Positions 6,363 to 20,279 of a stretch of DNA of 21,412 nucleotides are shown in pieces (position 1 is the stretch's first letter; each line of letters begins with the position of its first letter). The DNA lies in IMG/VR virus record IMGVR_UViG_3300032289_000853, positions 1 to 21,412 of that record. One strand, given 5' to 3'. The position numbers and the translations under genes are program-made. The notes beneath the pieces are model-generated. The model searched no databases, was not told the DNA's origin, and saw nothing but the letters and a program-made list of their open reading frames with translations. The stretch is from a virus.

Positions 6363-7853
6363 TCAATAGTAAACGTGCTTCTTTCTGAAGCCGATTAGAT
6401 CTTCACGCTCGTCTGTATCGAGCCGCAAAAATCCACCTTGTCTGAAACGAATTAATCCTTGAACACAAGCGTCAACCAAGTCATCATGATCTGCGTTCGG
6501 GAAAGCAGCCATTTGCTCAACCAACTCGTGCGCCCATCTCGTATCAGGTGCCCATACTTTACCCGACTTGAACAAATCAGTCACCGAGTTTAGACGCACA
6601 AATTTATCATTTCCTCTAGATGGGGTGTATTCACTCACCACAATCCCCATCCTTCTCAATTCAAATATCAACGGTGCTCCTGCGGCCTTAGCCTCAACAA
6701 CAAAAGCATCTGGCTCCCAATCTTTATAGTGGTTAAAAGCTTTCTCTTTCAACTCAGGAAACTCCATCCTCTTCTGGAAAGCATCTAACAAAATAATATT
6801 GATGTCTTCAGGGTTCTCTTTTAAATGAAAAACGCCAAGGGTCACGCAGGCGGAATAGTCCGATCTCTCATTCTTAGTGAATGCGGTATCCCAAGACTGA
6901 ATAATAAACTCACACTTAGGAGGATCTTCATGCTCCCAAATCTTCCACCACTCTCTCTTAACTAAAGCACCCTCTTCTCCCGTAGGGTTCTGCTGATACT
7001 GAGCATTCCACTTACTAGGAGGCAACTCATCCCGAAGTGCTTCTAATTCTTCCAAACTCCAAAACTCAGGCCATAAAGGTTTGCCACTCGGCATGATCGC
7101 TGGGAGTTCTATTAACTCCCACTCTTCCCCTCTATCCCTACTTGCTGCATCCTTGATGATTCTACCAGTCAGGTCTTTCTCCGACCAACGGGTCATCACT
7201 ACAACAATAGTACCTCCCGGCTGTAAACGCTGTCTAGGGCCAGAAGTGTACCATTCATAAATCTTGTCAAAGACAGTAGGATCTCCCTGAGCTAAAGCAG
7301 CTTCCTGTTCAGAGTGGGGATCGTCAATGATTAAAAGATCCGCACCTTTACCAGTTACTGTACCTCCAACGCCGATAGCGAAATACTCTCCACCGCCATT
7401 AGTAGCCCAGCGGCCAGCAGCTTTACTGTCTTGTCTCAAAGCCACATTAGGAAAGATTTTTGCATACTGTTCACTGTCTACTAAGTTCCTAACCTTCCTA
7501 CCGAATCCAACGGCGAGATCAGCCGTGTTAGAACACTGAATAACTTTCTTATTAGGAAACTTCCCAAGGAACCAAGAAGGTAAAAGATAACTAGCAAACT
7601 CACTCTTAGTATGCCGAGGAGCCATATTGATGATTAATCTCTTAATCTTCCCATTAGCAACATCTTCAAACTTCTTAGCCATGAGAGAGTGATGCCTCCC
7701 CGAAACAAACCCGGGCCACATCGTCTTAATATAGTCCATGAAAGACTCCTGCGCCTTCTCACGTATAAGCGCACTCTTATAGTCCTCCACCTCCGCTAAG
7801 AACAAATCCTTCTCGTTCTCCGGCAAACTATCAATCAACTGCTCAAGCTTCAT
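6363..7853 (-). CDS. Terminase large subunit (packaging ATPase and nuclease)
   Basis: The product has 496 residues. The ATPase domain shows a phage-type Walker A, APRHTKSE (78-85), and Walker B LLIIDD (173-178), with a likely coupling motif in VVVMTRW (217-223). The RNase H-like nuclease domain has QSWDTAF (Asp322), VVEAKAAG (Glu387) and HDDLVDA (Asp457/458), the acidic triad that cuts concatemers. It pumps DNA into the procapsid together with the portal. The N-terminal MWPGF...HHSLMAKKFEDV segment is typical of the family. Its ATG overlaps the stop of the winged-helix gene (ATGA), so translation is coupled. Length and motifs look complete. Confidence 0.96.
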   Translation of the reverse strand: MKLEQLIDSLPENEKDLFLAEVEDYKSALIREKAQESFMDYIKTMWPGFVSGRHHSLMAKKFEDVANGKIKRLIINMAPRHTKSEFASYLLPSWFLGKFPNKKVIQCSNTADLAVGFGRKVRNLVDSEQYAKIFPNVALRQDSKAAGRWATNGGGEYFAIGVGGTVTGKGADLLIIDDPHSEQEAALAQGDPTVFDKIYEWYTSGPRQRLQPGGTIVVVMTRWSEKDLTGRIIKDAASRDRGEEWELIELPAIMPSGKPLWPEFWSLEELEALRDELPPSKWNAQYQQNPTGEEGALVKREWWKIWEHEDPPKCEFIIQSWDTAFTKNERSDYSACVTLGVFHLKENPEDINIILLDAFQKRMEFPELKEKAFNHYKDWEPDAFVVEAKAAGAPLIFELRRMGIVVSEYTPSRGNDKFVRLNSVTDLFKSGKVWAPDTRWAHELVEQMAAFPNADHDDLVDACVQGLIRFRQGGFLRLDTDEREDLIGFRKKHVYY

Positions 7854-8074
7854 TCAAGATTCCTGAAGTTAATGTAAACAGGTCTAATCGTCCTACCCTG
7901 TCTATCAACCTTCTTTATAACACCTATATTTACAAGTCGCTTAACTATTTTTGAAGTATTTGACATACTCATCTTTCCTCTCTGATGGGCTATGTCCTTA
8001 AGAGACGGGCTAAACCCATACTTCTTCCACCATTCATCAATAATCAAAAACACTTCCTTCTGCACCGGGGTCAT
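7850..8074 (-). CDS. LexA-type winged-helix DNA-binding protein (no protease domain)
   Basis: The product is 74 residues from an ATG at 8074, which has a very good SD, GGAGGT. A longer frame reaches ATG at 8155, but that codon lies inside an operator-like repeat and has no SD. The sequence MTPVQKEVFLIIDEWWKKYG then FSPSLKDIA, SMSNTSKIVKRLVNIGVIKK and a basic wing VDRQGRTIRP match the N-terminal DNA-binding domain of LexA. No peptidase domain is present, so it should not self-cleave as LexA does. It lies between the two terminase genes, overlapping the large one by ATGA. Three dyad repeats just upstream suggest autoregulation. It is the best candidate to bind all five copies; this is inference. 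Confidence 0.8.
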   Translation of the reverse strand: MTPVQKEVFLIIDEWWKKYGFSPSLKDIAHQRGKMSMSNTSKIVKRLVNIGVIKKVDRQGRTIRPVYINFRNLE

Positions 8075-8146
8075 CTCTACCTCCATACATTCTTCAAACG
8101 TTCTGTCGCTTTTACGCGACACCATCTTCTTGTTAATTTGTACTCT

Positions 8147-8227
8147 AGAAATCATTTATCATTTCTGCGTTGTAGAAATCATTTATCATTTCTAGAAAAT
8201 TTTTTGTAGAAATCATTAATCATTTCT
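8147..8227. promoter_or_regulatory. Cluster of three operator-like dyad repeats
   Basis: Three 20-bp copies lie at 8147-8166, 8174-8193 and 8208-8227. The first two are identical (AGAAATCATTTATCATTTCT), the third differs by one base (TTAATC for TTTATC). Each has arms AGAAAT and ATTTCT around 8 bases. Centre spacings are 27 and 34. The cluster spans the gap between terS and the winged-helix gene; the terS stop codon is inside copy 3 and a spurious ATG of the winged-helix frame is inside copy 1. The N8 spacing equals that of the Gram-negative LexA box. Iteron or packaging-site roles remain possible. Confidence 0.75.
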
Positions 8228-8950
8228 ACCCGGGGTGTCTTCCCTAAACGCATGGGTGGGTATGCTGCCAGAAACTTTTTCTGGGGGTGGGGGTTCTTCC
8301 GAATCAGATTCTTGATGGGTTGATTCGGGTGGAATAGTATGTATAGGATCTAGGGACTCCGCAACGTCGTCTGGGGGGGTCGGGGATGGGTGGGTCTCGC
8401 CCGCCAACTCGCGCAAAAGGGTGTCCGCCTCCACGAACGTCACATCCTCCGCGCCCGCCTTCAGCATCTCACGCAACTGCCCCATGATCTTGGCCTTCGT
8501 GTCCTCGCTCGACCGGATGTGCCTGATCTCCTTGCGTTCAGTAAAGGCCGACACTTCGGTGACTGTGCCGAGTACCTTAGACGCCTGTACCTTCGTTGCC
8601 TGTTTAGCTTCAGGGTCAATCAGCACTTGGACGAGGGATTGAATTACCAACGACCTCAAGGCTTCAGGGGTGCGATGTTTAGCCGACTCAATAGCCAGCT
8701 TATACGCCTCGACCTCAAGGGCTATCCTTGGGTCACTGGCCAGCTTATACGGCTCACATGCTAGCGTCGCCTTCGTCGCCTCCTTTTTGTGGCTCTGCCT
8801 GTATGCGTCCGCCTTCGTCTTACCGAGGGCGAGACCCTTCGCGAACTCCTTTTGCTTACCCGTCAAAGCTCGATCGGAAACACCTAGAAGCTCAGTCATT
8901 GGGACTTGCTCTAGCCCTTCCCTTATCTGCTTTCTTGTTAATGCTTTCAT
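8216..8950 (-). CDS. Terminase small subunit (DNA recognition)
   Basis: The product is 244 residues from ATG at 8950. A longer frame goes to 9040, but that ATG lies within an operator-like repeat. Residues 28-85 (LTGKQKEFAKGLALGKTKAD, then ASDPRIALEVEAYKLAIES) match the helix-turn-helix of small terminases, which bind the pac or cos site and load DNA on the large subunit. A helical middle follows. The last 65 residues are Pro, Glu, Asp and Ser rich and look disordered (SPTPPDDVAESLDPIHTIPP). The gene is visibly more GC-rich than the large terminase and portal, which may mark transfer. The SD, GGAGAG, is further from the ATG than usual, so the exact start is uncertain. Confidence 0.8.
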   Translation of the reverse strand: MKALTRKQIREGLEQVPMTELLGVSDRALTGKQKEFAKGLALGKTKADAYRQSHKKEATKATLACEPYKLASDPRIALEVEAYKLAIESAKHRTPEALRSLVIQSLVQVLIDPEAKQATKVQASKVLGTVTEVSAFTERKEIRHIRSSEDTKAKIMGQLREMLKAGAEDVTFVEADTLLRELAGETHPSPTPPDDVAESLDPIHTIPPESTHQESDSEEPPPPEKVSGSIPTHAFREDTPGRND

Positions 8951-9031
8951 GTGTGTTATCTCTCTCCTGTATTGGGGGAATGGGAAGCAAAGCTGTCCCG
9001 CTTCGCTATGTCCCGACGGGGCGATTTGAAC

Positions 9032-9051
9032 AGAAATCATTTGTAATTTCT
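9032..9051. promoter_or_regulatory. Operator-like dyad repeat, copy 4
   Basis: The sequence is AGAAATCATTTGTAATTTCT, with the same arms and 8-base spacer as the cluster at 8147-8227 and three changes near the right of the spacer. It lies 82 bases upstream of the chosen terS start, where it could block a leftward promoter. Confidence 0.7.
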
Positions 9052-9229
9052 AGCCCCTTTATGCAGCTTGTTTTTGTAGTCATTTCGTTCACAGTTTGAA
9101 AAACACTTTCACCCTGTTTTTTTAATACTTTGGATTACATAGGGAAAACCCCTAGCGTTGATTTTAAAGGCTTTTTTCATACATGGCACGATTCTATTAT
9201 GCTATATATGTGTAAGGCACAACATTTTG

Positions 9230-9842: not shown

Positions 9843-10019
9843 ATGAACGACAAACCTAAAACAATGGGCGAACTGGAAGCCGAAAACCTTGACGGCTTCC
9901 GCAACCCCTCCAGGACTCCGGCAGAACAAGCCGAGATTGACAGACGCACAAAAGCCATGCGCGAGCATGACCGACTGCACACCGCCATTGAAAAAGATCA
10001 ACCCGAAACCGATGAATAA
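9843..10019 (+). CDS. Small charged phage protein
   Basis: The product has 58 residues, highly charged and probably mostly helical or disordered (GELEAENLDGFRNPSRTPAE, REHDRLHTAIEKDQ). The chosen ATG at 9843 has the SD AAAGGAG; a longer frame from 9795 has none and would run through the hairpin element. It is followed directly by the first GGAGACCATCCGATG cassette. No family is recognised. Confidence 0.75.
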   Translation: MNDKPKTMGELEAENLDGFRNPSRTPAEQAEIDRRTKAMREHDRLHTAIEKDQPETDE

Positions 10020-10036
10020 AGGAGACCATCCGATGA
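10017..10036 (+). promoter_or_regulatory. Shared RBS cassette, copy 1
   Basis: TAAAGGAGACCATCCGATGA contains the stop of the upstream gene, the SD and the start of the next gene. The same 20 bases recur at 10351-10370. Related cassettes lie at 11653, 11832, 12005 and 12977. Confidence 0.85.
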
Positions 10037-10176
10037 AACGCTATTTTGTCCACATCCCAACATGGATACATGCCATGACCTGCTACGGCACGAACAAAAA
10101 GGACGCTATCGCCCGATTTCGCCATCAGCATGGGCTTGTCCGCATGCCCAAGGGCTACGGCATTTGGGAGGCTTGA
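10033..10176 (+). CDS. Tiny phage protein with basic alpha/beta look
   Basis: The product has 47 residues: MKRYFVHIPTWIHAMTCYGT, then NKKDAIARFRHQHGLVRMPK and GYGIWEA. A strand, a helix with DAIARF, and a basic end are the visible parts. It uses the shared RBS cassette. A longer in-frame reading from 9889 is rejected because the cassette places the SD here and that reading would overlap the previous gene. Function is unknown. Confidence 0.75.
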   Translation: MKRYFVHIPTWIHAMTCYGTNKKDAIARFRHQHGLVRMPKGYGIWEA

Positions 10177-10353
10177 ATGTTTACCTATATCGCGTTTTAC
10201 AAAGGCAAAGAAATCACAGTTAACGCCCTCCGTTCTTTCGATGCTCAGGAGATCGCTAGCAAGATTTTTAAAGCCAAAAAAAGCTACGAAGTGACTGTGA
10301 TGCTTGTCGCCAAAGGTGACGAGCCAGTTATCCAAAACCCCGCAATTCTTTAA
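10177..10353 (+). CDS. Tiny conserved-looking phage protein
   Basis: The product has 58 residues: MFTYIAFYKGKEITVNALRS then FDAQEIASKIFKAKKSYEVT and VMLVAKGDEPVIQNPAIL. The pattern beta-beta-helix (AQEIASKIFKAKK) then a strand VTVMLVAKG resembles short proteins seen in many environmental phages, though no function is known for them. The ATG follows the upstream stop directly (TGAATG) and the SD GGAGG lies in the end of that gene. Confidence 0.78.
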   Translation: MFTYIAFYKGKEITVNALRSFDAQEIASKIFKAKKSYEVTVMLVAKGDEPVIQNPAIL

Positions 10354-10370
10354 AGGAGACCATCCGATGA
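10351..10370 (+). promoter_or_regulatory. Shared RBS cassette, copy 2
   Basis: These 20 bases are identical to 10017-10036, covering the upstream stop, the SD, the CATCC linker and the next start. Confidence 0.85.
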
Positions 10371-10645
10371 CCAACCTCAACAACCTTATCTGTGACGCTA
10401 AAGCGGGGAAACCCGCCACCCTGACCGATGCACAAAAGCACGATTTACTCTGCATGGTCAGCAAATATTGCAGACGCGAAACAGTCAACAAACTGGCGCG
10501 ACGAATTAACCTTCCTTTGTCCCTTTGGCAAGATGCGGGGCTTTTCTCTCGCGTGACTGTTGACGATGGAGGGGTGAGCTATATCTGCGGGCAATCATGG
10601 CGCGATGAGATGCGAACCCTTCGCGACCTGATTTTGTATAAATGA
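10367..10645 (+). CDS. Small phage protein with possible DNA-binding helices
   Basis: The product has 92 residues. The first part is polar (LICDAKAGKPATLTDAQKHD), then comes SKYCRRETVNKLARRINLPLS, which could be a helix-turn-helix-like element, and a C-terminal QSWRDEMRTLRDLILYK helix. The start at 10367 is set by the shared RBS cassette; an in-frame extension to 10304 overlaps the previous gene. Function is unknown and the DNA-binding hint is weak. Confidence 0.75.
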   Translation: MTNLNNLICDAKAGKPATLTDAQKHDLLCMVSKYCRRETVNKLARRINLPLSLWQDAGLFSRVTVDDGGVSYICGQSWRDEMRTLRDLILYK

Positions 10646-10652
10646 GGACAAC

Positions 10653-10802
10653 ATGAGCAAGTCAGACCTACAAACCATTTTTGAGATCGCCCGCATAACT
10701 TTGTCGCACCAAGCAACTAGCGACCTGATAGCCCGCGAGCTTGATCTAAGCGATGAAGAACTAAACCGCCTTTTTTCCGTCATTGAGGAGGTTACAGGAT
10801 GA
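10653..10802 (+). CDS. Tiny helical phage protein
   Basis: The product has 49 residues: MSKSDLQTIFEIARITLSHQ, then ATSDLIARELDLSDEELNRL and FSVIEEVTG. It looks all helical, with ATSDLIARELDLSDEEL suggesting a helix-turn-helix-like pair. The SD GAGG lies at the end of the upstream gene. Its stop overlaps the next start (ATGA), and its end encodes the next SD (GAGGAGG). Confidence 0.75.
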   Translation: MSKSDLQTIFEIARITLSHQATSDLIARELDLSDEELNRLFSVIEEVTG

Positions 10803-10972
10803 ACTACCCACCCGCTTACATCATCGACATGGGCTATAAATTCGAGCGCACAAAAAGCAGCAAAACCGCGAAAACTTACCGCGATTGGCTAGCCCAAGCC
10901 ACCGCCAAAGACCCCGACAACCGCTTGGAGATCGTCCGATTGTTTGAGATAGGCAGGGCAGAGGCTAGATAA
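10799..10972 (+). CDS. Tiny basic phage protein
   Basis: The product has 57 residues: MNYPPAYIIDMGYKFERTKS, then SKTAKTYRDWLAQATAKDPD and NRLEIVRLFEIGRAEAR. It is basic and likely helical in the second half. It overlaps the upstream gene by ATGA with a strong SD inside that gene. A hairpin element follows its stop at once. No family is recognised. Confidence 0.75.
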   Translation: MNYPPAYIIDMGYKFERTKSSKTAKTYRDWLAQATAKDPDNRLEIVRLFEIGRAEAR

Positions 10973-11001
10973 CCGCCTGAAGCCCTTTTTGAGGGCTTTG
11001 G
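10973..11001 (+). repeat. Intergenic hairpin element, copy 2
   Basis: CCGCCTGAAGCCCT, loop TTTTG, then AGGGCTTTGG. The stem AAGCCCT/AGGGCTT (10980-10986 and 10992-10998) is the same as in copy 1 at 9771, with the same CCGCCTGA lead. Both copies directly follow a TAA stop. Confidence 0.6.
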
Positions 11002-11032
11002 AGGGTACTTTTGCCCGAACAGGAGAAACTAA

Positions 11033-11341
11033 ATGATGAAAGTTGATAAATACAACGTCAGGATTGTACGAAAGGGCGACCGATACGGGCGCGACGATTG
11101 CCTGACCCATGACGACGACCGACCAGTGGTTGAATTCTATGACTCAAACCATCCGACCGAGGACGGGCGAGGCGGGTTTGTGAGCCGTTATTACGTCGGG
11201 ACGCTACTCGGGCATGAGGGCTTTTATGGGGGCGACCCTACGGGCGGACTATGCCTAGACGGGGGTCAGCGTGACGTCTACACAGTCAGCGATCAGGATA
11301 TGAACACAGTCAGAGATTATTTAAAGGAAGAAACAAAATGA
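11033..11341 (+). CDS. Small hypothetical phage protein
   Basis: The product has 102 residues, acidic and Gly/Tyr-rich: VDKYNVRIVRKGDRYGRDDC, then DRPVVEFYDSNH, GGFVSRYYVGTLLGHEGFYG and SDQDMNTVRDYLKEETK. It looks like a compact alpha/beta domain with several aromatic residues. The SD AGGAG is seven bases from the first of two ATGs. Its stop overlaps the next start (ATGA). The general pattern is familiar from other phage hypotheticals, but no function is known. Confidence 0.8.
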   Translation: MMKVDKYNVRIVRKGDRYGRDDCLTHDDDRPVVEFYDSNHPTEDGRGGFVSRYYVGTLLGHEGFYGGDPTGGLCLDGGQRDVYTVSDQDMNTVRDYLKEETK

Positions 11342-11652
11342 ACACCAAAACTCACAGATCACCGCACCGAGGATGGATGACAGAATCTCACGTTGAGATT
11401 AACGACACCATGCGCCTGAGAATCCTCACCATGAAACGATGGGGCGGGTCTCTCTGCACCACCGCGACAGTTGAGCACAAAGACGGAAATTATTTCTCAT
11501 ACGAGCCGTTTAAAGACTACGACAAAACAATTTTGAGCACACGCCCCGCCCGAGTAACTCAGCGCACAGTCGAGGAACAACACGCACAGGCTACGCGAAA
11601 CCTTGACGTTATCCGCGACACCATCGACCACCATTACGCAACCCTGAATTGA
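11338..11652 (+). CDS. Small hypothetical phage protein
   Basis: The product has 104 residues and is basic. The middle (MRLRILTMKRWGGSLCTTAT, then VEHKDGNYFSYEPFKDYDK) reads as a small beta sheet, and the end (RTVEEQHAQATRNLDVIRDT) as a long helix. It overlaps the upstream gene by ATGA; the SD AAGGA is inside that gene. A shared RBS cassette follows its stop. Function is unknown. Confidence 0.78.
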   Translation: MNTKTHRSPHRGWMTESHVEINDTMRLRILTMKRWGGSLCTTATVEHKDGNYFSYEPFKDYDKTILSTRPARVTQRTVEEQHAQATRNLDVIRDTIDHHYATLN

Positions 11653-11667
11653 GGAGACCATCCGATG
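11653..11667 (+). promoter_or_regulatory. Shared RBS cassette, copy 3
   Basis: GGAGACCATCCGATG is an exact match to copies 1, 2 and 4. It directly follows the TGA stop of the upstream gene. Confidence 0.85.
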
Positions 11668-11847
11668 AAAACCTACGATATAAATTTTACATACACGGCA
11701 CAACACAACATCATTGTTGAGGCTGAAACAGAAGAACAAGCTAGAGAGATTGCACAACAAAAATTCAACGCTAATGAATCCAATTACGAACTTTGGGGTT
11801 CTTGGGAAATTGGATACATAGACGAACTAGAGGAGACCATCCGATGA
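11665..11847 (+). CDS. Small alpha/beta phage protein
   Basis: The product has 60 residues: MKTYDINFTYTAQHNIIVEA then ETEEQAREIAQQKFNANESN and a tail YELWGSWEIGYIDELEETIR. Two strands and the helix EEQAREIAQQKF make a pattern common in tiny phage proteins and reminiscent of the 58-aa protein at 10177. It starts from a shared cassette, and its own last residues EETIR are encoded by the next cassette, so coding and RBS functions coincide. Confidence 0.8.
   Translation: MKTYDINFTYTAQHNIIVEAETEEQAREIAQQKFNANESNYELWGSWEIGYIDELEETIR
11832..11846 (+). promoter_or_regulatory. Shared RBS cassette, copy 4 (inside coding sequence)
   Basis: GGAGACCATCCGATG here is read in frame as the end of the upstream protein (EETIR) and also serves as SD and start of the next gene. 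Confidence 0.85.
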
Positions 11848-12020
11848 TTGACCAAAACGATATTTCAAATGCAGTTTTGAATATGTACGACATTCGGGAC
11901 GCTTTGTCTAAACGAATGAAGGCAAGACGTATACATGACCCCGACACAGACTATTCCATTGGCGACTGTATAGATGATGTGATCTTATTTTTGGAACAAC
12001 TAGAGGAGACCAACCAATGA
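11844..12020 (+). CDS. Small acidic helical phage protein
   Basis: The product has 58 residues: MIDQNDISNAVLNMYDIRDA, then LSKRMKARRIHDPDTDYSIG and DCIDDVILFLEQLEETNQ. It appears all helical. The start at 11844 is fixed by the cassette; an in-frame extension to 11793 would overlap the previous gene. Its end again encodes a cassette variant (EETNQ) and overlaps the next gene by ATGA. No family is recognised. Confidence 0.78.
   Translation: MIDQNDISNAVLNMYDIRDALSKRMKARRIHDPDTDYSIGDCIDDVILFLEQLEETNQ
12005..12019 (+). promoter_or_regulatory. Shared RBS cassette, variant copy 5
   Basis: GGAGACCAACCAATG differs from the main form at two linker positions. It is coding for the upstream protein and gives the SD and start of the next gene. 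Confidence 0.75.
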
Positions 12021-12436
12021 TTCAAATTATCACGACCAAAGACGGATTCATGGTGCAACACATGGACGGAGAACTTGAGGGCGAATACCTTTGCGATGCC
12101 AAGGGCGATAACCTTTTCCAGTGGCACAGAGAAGCCGAGGCCGTCATGTATGCCGCTTTTGATAAAGATCAAAGCCTCATGACTGACGACCGAGCTTTAC
12201 TGTATTACACCGAAAAACTGGCTCAACATGGTTGGTATGCGATGGGAATGATCCACCTTGAAGATGTTAAAGACCACATCAACGGAGGCACAGACATTGT
12301 AGAGATGCCATCCGATGAAGTGCTGAACCAAGCCTGCGCCCGCGTTGCCCGCAAATACTCGTTTGAGGATTACTTGATGTGTACCGAATGGGCGGCAGAA
12401 CTGGCAATGCAATACGCACAGGAGGAAACACAATGA
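12017..12436 (+). CDS. Hypothetical phage protein (largest of the small-gene island)
   Basis: The product has 139 residues and is acidic: MIQIITTKDGFMVQHMDGEL, then YLCDAKGDNLFQWHREAEAV, and a C-terminal half rich in helix (DEVLNQACARVARKYSFEDY, LMCTEWAAELAMQYAQEETQ). The N-terminal 35 residues look like a small beta unit. No catalytic motif is evident. It overlaps both neighbours by ATGA. Function is unknown. Confidence 0.8.
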   Translation: MIQIITTKDGFMVQHMDGELEGEYLCDAKGDNLFQWHREAEAVMYAAFDKDQSLMTDDRALLYYTEKLAQHGWYAMGMIHLEDVKDHINGGTDIVEMPSDEVLNQACARVARKYSFEDYLMCTEWAAELAMQYAQEETQ

Positions 12437-12648
12437 AAACATCTGAACACTTTGCACTTGACGAATGGTTGTCAGACTACCCCGACAACCTGACCTATGA
12501 CCAAGTAATCACCATCTTGCGCGACCCTGAGAACACATGGTGCGCGGATGACATTACTGTTTGGGAAGTGGTAGAGGACTGCACTTGTGACCAAGTGGCG
12601 GGATTTATTGAGAGCACAAAGAAACATTTTGAAAGGGTTACATCGTGA
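12433..12648 (+). CDS. Small acidic phage protein
   Basis: The product has 71 residues: MKTSEHFALDEWLSDYPDNL, then TYDQVITILRDPENTWCADD and ITVWEVVEDCTCDQVAGFIE, ending STKKHFERVTS. It is acidic, with three Cys (including CTC). The ending is like that of the 67-aa protein at 12989 (RKAFEKVST), hinting at shared ancestry. SD AGGAGG lies inside the upstream gene and the start overlaps its stop. Confidence 0.78.
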   Translation: MKTSEHFALDEWLSDYPDNLTYDQVITILRDPENTWCADDITVWEVVEDCTCDQVAGFIESTKKHFERVTS

Positions 12649-12992
12649 AAGACGATTCTTATGAACGCATTGACAAAATGTGGGAGACCAAAGCTATGGA
12701 AGAAAGACAACTTTTAAAAGCCAAGATTAAAGAACTGTTAGATGAAAACCATCCGGCAGAAATGGAGCGACTAACTGGCGCGAGCGAAACCTTGTGCTAT
12801 CAGATCGTGCATGAGATCTACAAAGACGGAGGCTTGCACGAACCCCAGTATTGGGAAGCCGAGCGAGTGGGTGACATTTGGGCTATCTACGGCAAGACAT
12901 TTGCGGGTGAATACATAGATGCCAATGGCGATTGCCTTGCGTTTGATACAGAGGAAGAAGCTAACGAATACATAAAGGAGTCCATCCGATGA
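12645..12992 (+). CDS. Small hypothetical phage protein with GTG start
   Basis: The product has 115 residues. It starts at a GTG that overlaps the upstream stop (GTGA), behind AAGGG. The first 65 residues look helical (MEERQLLKAKIKELLDENHP, then LTGASETLCYQIVHEIYKDG), and the rest is an alpha/beta unit (VGDIWAIYGKTFAGEYIDAN, EEEANEYIKESIR). The ending ESIR is coded by another RBS cassette variant. An ATG at 12660 or 12675 could also serve but lacks an SD. Function is unknown. Confidence 0.75.
   Translation: MKDDSYERIDKMWETKAMEERQLLKAKIKELLDENHPAEMERLTGASETLCYQIVHEIYKDGGLHEPQYWEAERVGDIWAIYGKTFAGEYIDANGDCLAFDTEEEANEYIKESIR
12977..12991 (+). promoter_or_regulatory. Shared RBS cassette, variant copy 6
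   Basis: GGAGTCCATCCGATG differs from the main form at one base. It codes for the last residues of the upstream protein and sets the next start. Confidence 0.8.
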
Positions 12993-13192
12993 TCTACTTT
13001 GCACTAAACCCTGATGGGCTTTTGTATAACTTGGGCGACCACGGAGATTGGGAATCGGCAGAAGAAACCGCTAGCGATCTACGCATTGACCCAATATGGA
13101 CGCTCAACGAGGACGAAGCCCTCAACTGGGCAGAATTTATTCTGACTGAAATTAAACAAACCCGTAAAGCATTTGAAAAGGTATCAACATGA
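12989..13192 (+). CDS. Small acidic phage protein
   Basis: The product has 67 residues: MIYFALNPDGLLYNLGDHGD, then WESAEETASDLRIDPIWTLN and EDEALNWAEFILTEIKQTRK, ending AFEKVST. A short beta hairpin, then a helix with SAEETASDL, then a long helix. It overlaps both neighbours by ATGA. No family is recognised. Confidence 0.78.
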   Translation: MIYFALNPDGLLYNLGDHGDWESAEETASDLRIDPIWTLNEDEALNWAEFILTEIKQTRKAFEKVST

Positions 13193-19664: not shown

Positions 19665-19711
19665 TGCTTACCTCCTGTTATACCTGCTATGTTTCCAATT
19701 ATTATTGCACA

Positions 19712-19741
19712 GTTCTAGCAGTTTGTGCCGTGTGTTGTAAA
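19712..19741 (-). promoter_or_regulatory. Candidate promoter of the replication operon
   Basis: On the minus strand TTTACA (19741-19736), 18 bases, then TAGAAC (19717-19712). The -35 matches five of six and the -10 four of six. A start near 19705 gives a leader of about 40 bases to the HTH gene. Confidence 0.4.
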
Positions 19742-20118
19742 AATGTACTAGGGACTTTCCCTAATGTTGTATTTTGGCCATAGGTTCCCCAAGGGTGAGA
19801 AGCACTCCCCCTCTCCCAGCGTAGCTCACTTAAGTGGAGCCAGCCTAGAGTACGCAGAACGTAGCGATTCGTCTGTAGTGGTCTTGTTATCACCATGTTC
19901 CCACTACATTGCCCAGTCCCTCGCTAACAGGCTGGACGGCTTCTCTGGGGGTGTACCAGTGCCGGTGTTTCCTTCCGCGCCACCCATGCAGGTGCTTGAT
20001 AACGTTCGGAGTACGGCTGTCGTAGGAGGAGAGACTAGGACTGCTCACATAAAGCAGTGTGTTCAAAACATAAGAAAGGACTTTGTAACGGCGCTAACCC
20101 GCCACCAGTCCCAGTCTC
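19742..20118. other. GC-rich orphan segment without convincing gene
   Basis: This stretch is more GC-rich than its neighbours and has no ORF with a good start. It carries several dyads: TAGGGA/TCCCTA (19749-19763), a near-palindrome GCTCACTTAAGTGGAGC (19824-19840), TGTAGTGG/CCACTACA (19874-19881 and 19901-19908) and ACTGCT/AGCAGT (20040-20058). A long plus frame (19764-20411) and a 64-codon minus frame (19702-19896) cross it but lack SDs and a protein-like look. It might be a structured RNA, a site for replication proteins or a decayed gene. Confidence 0.5.
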
Positions 20119-20120
20119 AA

Positions 20121-20213
20121 AACAAAAAAGCCACTTACAACTGCCCCGTCGTGGTTCCCCTAACGGGGCGAGGCATGTGTAAATGGCTTCTGAGCGTTGA
20201 CCACGACGACAAC
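20121..20213 (-). ncRNA. Candidate ~93-nt small RNA with kissing-loop potential
   Basis: A consensus-like promoter lies just upstream and an intrinsic terminator ends it. The 5' end can form CGTTG/CAACG (20214-20210 with 20199-20195) around a 10-base loop holding CGTCGTGGT. That loop is complementary over nine bases to ACCACGACG (20155-20147), which lies in and beside the loop of the terminator hairpin, so a kissing or pseudoknot contact is possible. No ORF is present. It might regulate host or phage mRNA, or act as an attenuator for the leftward region beyond. Ends are estimated from promoter and terminator. Confidence 0.6.
20128..20189 (-). terminator. Intrinsic terminator of the candidate RNA
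   Basis: On the minus strand AAGCCATTTACA pairs with TGTAAGTGGCTT (12 bp including one G.U) and encloses a second stem GCCCCGT/ACGGGGC (20169-20163 with 20149-20143). TTTT-G-TTTT follows at 20127-20119. The G.U becomes C.A on the plus strand, so the structure fits leftward transcription. Confidence 0.8.
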
Positions 20214-20219
20214 GAGCGG

Positions 20220-20250
20220 ATTATAAGCACAACTTTTCCGGCTTTGTCAA
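20220..20250 (-). promoter_or_regulatory. Leftward promoter with perfect -35 and -10, 19-bp spacer
   Basis: TTGACA (20250-20245) and TATAAT (20225-20220) are both perfect sigma-70 hexamers. The 19-base spacer is longer than the usual 17, as at MerR-type promoters, so it may be weak unless helped. Operator copy 5 starts seven bases upstream of the -35. Confidence 0.7.
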
Positions 20251-20257
20251 CCCCAGT

Positions 20258-20277
20258 AGAAATCTTTTATTATTTCT
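20258..20277. promoter_or_regulatory. Operator-like dyad repeat, copy 5
   Basis: AGAAATCTTTTATTATTTCT has the same arms and 8-base spacer as the copies near the terminase genes; with flanks the arms are GTAGAAAT/ATTTCTAC, eight bases each. It lies between the VRR-NUC terminator and the candidate RNA promoter, centred near -55 from the predicted start. Confidence 0.65.
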
Positions 20278-20279
20278 AC

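Follow-up and report, generated by a model that had tools for sequence, protein, structure and literature searches.

In the Salmonella prophage Gifsy-1, a single promoter gives rise to two forms of the IsrK RNA, a short terminated RNA and a longer read-through RNA (PMC4825925). The put RNA of phage HK022 is about 70 nt long and comprises two stem-loops, putL lying directly after an early promoter; put RNA contains a triple helix and suppresses terminators at a distance (PMC9378689). GOLLD and ROOL are large structured phage RNAs of unknown function that contain kissing loops; in GOLLD the 5' part is less well conserved than the 3' part, and a tRNA is sometimes enclosed (PMC12286853). A small antisense RNA, c4, underlies heteroimmunity in phages P1 and P7, and the sequences through which it pairs are presumed to be in loops (PMC12197685).

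The stretch of DNA analysed here (hereafter the window) is the whole of a 21.4-kb virus record of 21,412 nucleotides (IMGVR_UViG_3300032289_000853), in which terminase and replication genes lie on the minus strand. The terminase is nearest to terminases from aquatic phages, Pelagibacter phages among them, a resemblance that does not by itself assign a host. The preliminary description of this DNA had reported an orphan small RNA at 20121-20257. That interval corresponds to the 5' part only of a longer feature, conserved sequence continuing to about 19779, and the window thus appears to carry an RNA gene of ~470 nt, predicted to run on the minus strand from 20213 to about 19740 and to contain an internal terminator.

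The 5' unit begins on the minus strand with hairpin P1, GTTG-(10 nt)-CAAC (20213-20196), whose alignment cells are 100% paired in 43 sequences. Downstream of P1 is a terminator hairpin (20189-20128, minus; fold z -6.1 for that part) composed of the 12-bp stem P2 (20189-20178 with 20139-20128), a 2x2 internal loop, the 7-bp stem P2b (20175-20169 with 20148-20142) and the 4-bp stem P3 (20168-20165 with 20160-20157). Stem P2 contains G+C and stands directly before a run of six U (20129-20124), as in an intrinsic terminator, and both are conserved in relatives; the U-run is the predicted 3' end of a short RNA, about 91 nt from 20213. The loop of P1 carries CGTCGTGGT (20208-20200, minus), complementary over 9 nt to ACCACGACG (20155-20147, minus), a segment of the terminator hairpin of which 7-8 nt are unpaired within the hairpin fold; the resulting kissing helix covaries among relatives. 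In 106 of 155 units, the P1 stem and the kissing helix add up to 12 bp. The minus strand folds better (-42.8 kcal/mol, z -4.8) than the plus strand (-31.8 kcal/mol, z -2.5), and a U-G wobble of the stem suits the minus-strand RNA only. All of these elements, namely the 12-bp hairpin with its U-run, the 5' hairpin, the nine-base loop complementarity and the minus-strand polarity, had been recognized in the preliminary description and are present. However, that description also proposed two alternative folds, and this part has to be given up: in minimum-energy folds the pairing target of the loop is an unpaired bulge of the terminator hairpin, so that loop pairing can coexist with the terminator stem in a single pseudoknot, and mutually exclusive folds are ruled out.

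A -35 hexamer, TTGACA (20250-20245, minus), and a -10 hexamer, TATAAT (20225-20220, minus), separated by a 19-nt spacer, precede P1. The position of the -10 box is kept in relatives, whose promoters are equally spaced from P1: the end of the box lies 6-7 nt ahead of P1 in 137 of 155 units. The RNA is therefore expected to begin at or adjoining the first base of P1, and its predicted 5' end in the window should be 20213 or a neighbouring base. Promoters with at least nine of 12 consensus matches are found in 120/155 units versus 14/567 control segments. The autonomous leftward promoter that had been proposed from the two hexamers is thus borne out by its position in relatives.

Upstream of the -35 box lies the palindrome TAGAAATnnTTnAnnATTTCTA (20257-20278, no strand given), a candidate operator that is also present, slightly altered, in locus L327. 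The window contains five copies (8146-8167, 8173-8194, 8207-8228, 9031-9052 and 20257-20278), compared with 0.15 expected by chance; three follow one another in tandem where a repressor-like gene (7850-8155, minus) begins, and one stands just upstream of the RNA promoter. It is possible that the copies are operators of a phage regulator that would control the RNA as well. Elsewhere in the window, at 10014-12994 on the plus strand, small open reading frames start with the leader AAAGGAGACCATCCGATGA or close variants of it, which occur six times in all (family D1).

A weak BLAST match to the metagenomic phage MW202484 spanned exactly the 5' unit, and both loop and bulge are altered there relative to the window with their complementarity retained. 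Pattern scans of viral contigs yielded 187 relatives, 157 of them distinct. Several hundred viral DNA fragments or loci carry the RNA gene. The first relaxed pattern also matched coding sequence at four loci (L168-L171), which were excluded as members. A scan pattern without the 5' hairpin recovered one unit, L172, in which a different loop is matched by the bulge. In an alignment-free count, the loop has a perfect match within the hairpin in 155 of 156 distinct units analysed, and the pairing sequences comprise about 30 heptamers (33 distinct by their first seven letters). Since this search takes the best hairpin per unit, a control with swapped partners was used: matches of at least 6 nt occur in 154/156 units with their own partners and in about 56 with swapped ones, the latter number being inflated by relatives that share a common heptamer.

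The 43-sequence alignment, pseudoknot included, has 95.9% of its cells paired versus 84.4% when shuffled. Two-sided changes affect 163 cells versus 46 shuffled, and the covariation score for the stems and the loop-bulge helix is 0.370 versus 0.146, a value reached in 0/500 shuffles, although shared ancestry inflates such counts. All slid controls fall far below the true structure. In P2 and P2b, 7 of 19 pairs covary with 100% of cells paired, and as many as six pair types occur at a single pair. MAFFT shifted the class with a 7-nt bulge by one column (about ten rows in the pseudoknot), so that the alignment-based figure for pseudoknot covariation is conservative. The four Watson-Crick types seen at one pseudoknot pair seem hard to explain without pairing. 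Judged from this covariation, the conserved pseudoknotted fold of the 5' unit is real; homologues keep the stem and the loop complementarity. Intrinsic terminators are common in phages, and an ordinary terminator whose complementarity is due to chance, with no RNA function, could be imagined here. This is scarcely credible: the covariation contradicts it decisively, as do the swapped-partner controls, the position of the promoter and the constant geometry. An antisense RNA with a conserved single-stranded seed was also considered and ruled out, the alignment showing no such segment.

An independent set of loci was gathered by two downstream motifs alone, and most of these have no unit recognizable by the first patterns. 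A generic search that compares the loop of a 5' hairpin with the interior of a terminator hairpin found a match of at least 7 nt in 82 of these 124 loci versus about 7 with swapped partners, where not every locus is an independent lineage. The 78 distinct divergent units obtained in this way hold 47 heptamers, and their hairpins span 63 to 113 nt; in 69 of the 78 the pairing site is nevertheless 19-22 nt from the U-run. This near-constant distance of ~20 nt, about two helical turns, would suit a cis contact of the loop with one set level of the terminator helix, without proving it.

Between close relatives the unit can differ where its surroundings do not. Locus L327 is 96% identical to the window in the promoter segment, 91% in the downstream domain and 85% beyond the domain, whereas the 5' unit is only 36% identical, having another sequence with the same architecture. 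Three more loci (L388, L367 and L325) have different units ahead of a 90-93% identical domain, their promoter segments differing too, and in L359 the unit is 93% identical to that of the window. The 5' unit thus looks like an exchangeable cassette. Such exchange between relatives raises the question of RNA self-recognition in phages, in which the loop of the short RNA would pair with the bulge in the nascent RNA of a same-type phage and cause termination, giving incompatibility or superinfection immunity comparable to that of c4 in P1 and P7. The dozens of heptamers and the replacement of the cassette in an otherwise conserved locus speak for this, but every RNA contains its own pairing partner in cis, compensated drift together with recombination accounts for the diversity equally well, and the bacterial genomes searched contain no member and hence no sign of lysogens. 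We consider this explanation very unlikely.

Over the 600 nt past the U-run, 149 of 157 units fall into one similarity group, whereas the upstream regions form many small groups; in these 149 units 200-330 nt of further conserved sequence follow. In the window, the sequence between the U-run and this downstream part holds an optional inserted hairpin, GAGACTGGG...TAGTCTC (20118-20031, minus), present also in L109, L113, L006, L009, L327 and others and absent from other units. The downstream structured RNA domain itself (20018-19779, minus; ~240 nt) ends in the near-invariant TCACCCTTGGGGAACCTATG (19798-19779, minus). A 14-sequence alignment of the window's class, the one among several downstream classes that this evidence covers, gives 41 predicted pairs, 27 of them with two-sided changes. 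A second terminator-like hairpin (19765-19747) with a U-rich tail follows (19765-19738 as a whole, minus); it is kept in L327 and is likely to form the 3' end of the predicted ~470-nt RNA.

A promoter signal of the sigma70 type with a score of at least 8 occurs before the downstream RNA in only 4 of 153 gaps, compared with 62 of 417 control segments. Since the gap scores lie below the controls, synthesis of the downstream RNA seems to depend on read-through of the terminator. The label of an orphan therefore does not hold, as these units continue into conserved sequence that has no promoter signal of its own. The further suggestion, of a switch that decides read-through, stands in one half: read-through seems to be required for the downstream RNA, whereas its regulation is nowhere indicated.

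Besides the class of the window, several further downstream classes exist. In L059 and L091 (L059:8239-8356 and L091:4206-4323) the Betaproteobacteria-1 RNA (Rfam RF02932), which reportedly comes from a 2017 study of 224 candidate structured RNAs, directly follows the 5' unit and constitutes the first ~120 nt of the downstream RNA. A second class, with the motif CTAGGGGGCAGTTCCCGAANAATCC, is very abundant among the matches listed (loci L398 onwards), and the examples of it that were scanned (L016, L039, L009 and L099) have no match in Rfam. A tRNA (RF00005) or tRNA-like insert lies within the downstream module in L269 (5790-5855, a tRNA), L039 (about 960-1078) and L140. In L106, L120, L148, L179 and L190 a further near-consensus promoter stands right after the downstream domain, with additional sequence of non-coding appearance beyond it. 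In MW202484 (L003:5721-6080) the annotation of a hypothetical protein, UOF77725.1, which overlaps both the RNA unit and the downstream domain, is probably spurious.

We tentatively favour, at somewhat less than even confidence, the explanation that this phage RNA gene, new and modular, carries a built-in transcription gate in the form of its 5' module. Sequence and comparison support a strong promoter that starts the RNA at P1 and a P1 loop that pairs with the bulge of the intrinsic-terminator hairpin, tying both into one pseudoknotted fold. Most transcripts would end at the U-run as a stable ~91-nt RNA with both ends closed in helices, and a minority would read through to give the ~470-nt RNA. 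The loop-bulge contact would be able to form before the last stem strand is transcribed, and may set the frequency of termination, either in cis or through an effect of the short RNA on other RNAs of its type while these are being transcribed. The promoter fixed relative to P1, the covarying stems and loop-bulge helix with their nearly universal match, the own-partner excess in the downstream-motif loci, the pairing site held close to 20 nt from the U-run, and the single downstream group that covaries as RNA (in the class of the window) without a promoter signal all argue for such a gate. Against it, the fold does not by itself require any influence on termination, the loop pairing being compatible with the terminator stem, and weak leakage alone could produce the downstream RNA; termination, read-through and both RNA sizes are sequence predictions, and the gating role and any action in trans are inferred.

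Two other explanations were weighed. The ~91-nt pseudoknotted RNA could itself be the product, a stable trans-acting small RNA that might, for instance, serve a host protein or RNA polymerase as ligand or decoy, with the downstream RNA as a second product of terminator leakage. The near-consensus promoter, the 5' end closed in P1 and the 3' terminator suit this, and conservation falls on the fold rather than on any single-stranded seed. However, it leaves unexplained both the downstream RNA in nearly all units and the exchange of the unit beside a retained downstream domain, and we think it possible but somewhat unlikely. Alternatively, the unit could be a mere 5' domain of one large RNA, its U-run unused as a terminator and the P1-P2 pseudoknot capping and protecting the 5' end of a ~470-nt RNA that functions in its entirety, in the manner of GOLLD or ROOL. 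The unit and the downstream domain do co-occur, and the less conserved 5' part, the conserved 3' part and the tRNA in some modules, as in L269, recall GOLLD (PMC12286853). This reading is unlikely, because a hairpin with an immediate U-run is kept across units of different sequence, as for a terminator, and Rfam gives no match to GOLLD or ROOL. Compared with both, the transcription gate remains our preferred explanation.

The strict pattern, which divergent units would escape, matched 14 times in 84,980 prokaryote species genomes, each time without the structure, and a covariance model run over 399 genomes of one order found plain terminator hairpins only. Among phage records the unit is carried by the metagenomic record MW202484 alone, with none in the isolate phages searched; one representative unit has no match in plasmids, and the RNA of the window has none in E. 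coli. The genomic position varies in viral contigs, and most flanking genes share the strand, the nearest downstream gene being co-directional in 114 of 139 cases. Flanking gene families differ, which leaves the idea of a leader of one particular operon unsupported.

That no known RNA family is involved, as had been stated from the sequence, agrees with the Rfam search. Rfam 15 has no match in the window (for the unit, only unrelated weak matches at E up to 10), nor over the 5' unit in the loci of 30 relatives. The GOLLD and ROOL models have no match in the window or in the relatives' loci scanned, and the c4 antisense RNA model has none at any reported level. For the RNA of the window (19690-20125) the RF02932 model gives no match at E up to 5. 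In the literature searched, which largely fell short of subscription papers, the element is nowhere described. The RNA class and its architecture thus appear to be new, a claim that stops short of a new physical principle. The family has an unusually clear covarying pseudoknot and is absent from Rfam and from the bacterial genomes and isolate phages searched; it also brings to light large structured RNAs downstream, mostly unclassified as well, and gives the Betaproteobacteria-1 RNA a phage context. A bolder generalization is quite unlikely in our estimate, namely that these genes form a widespread modular class in which a pseudoknotted terminator cassette with exchangeable self-complementary specificity gates interchangeable structured RNAs and also provides RNA-only self-recognition between related phages.

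Among the systems already described, the Betaproteobacteria-1 RNA corresponds to the opening part of the downstream RNA at two loci, L059 and L091, and not to the 5' unit; it gives no match to the downstream domain of the window. In one bacterial order it was found at a few sites, where the 5' sequence inspected (one side for minus-strand loci) is without such a unit. The likeness to IsrK, drawn by description and with no Rfam homology, lies in one promoter, terminated and read-through forms, and base pairing as the basis of control. The two forms are shown for IsrK and only predicted from sequence here, and the read-through product is an mRNA in IsrK (PMC4825925) and a structured RNA here. 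The unit of the window has two stem-loops after a promoter, a possible parallel to put, again by description; unlike put, it itself ends in a terminator, held by a loop-bulge helix of 7-9 bp. GOLLD members are often >800 nt, compared with a predicted ~470 nt for the window RNA, and a promoter-proximal pseudoknotted terminator is absent from the descriptions of GOLLD and ROOL (PMC12286853). The c4 RNA pairs with a separate mRNA, whereas the complementary partner in the window RNA lies within the same RNA. The element is thus assigned to none of IsrK, put, GOLLD and ROOL, the first two being alike in logic and the last two in style.
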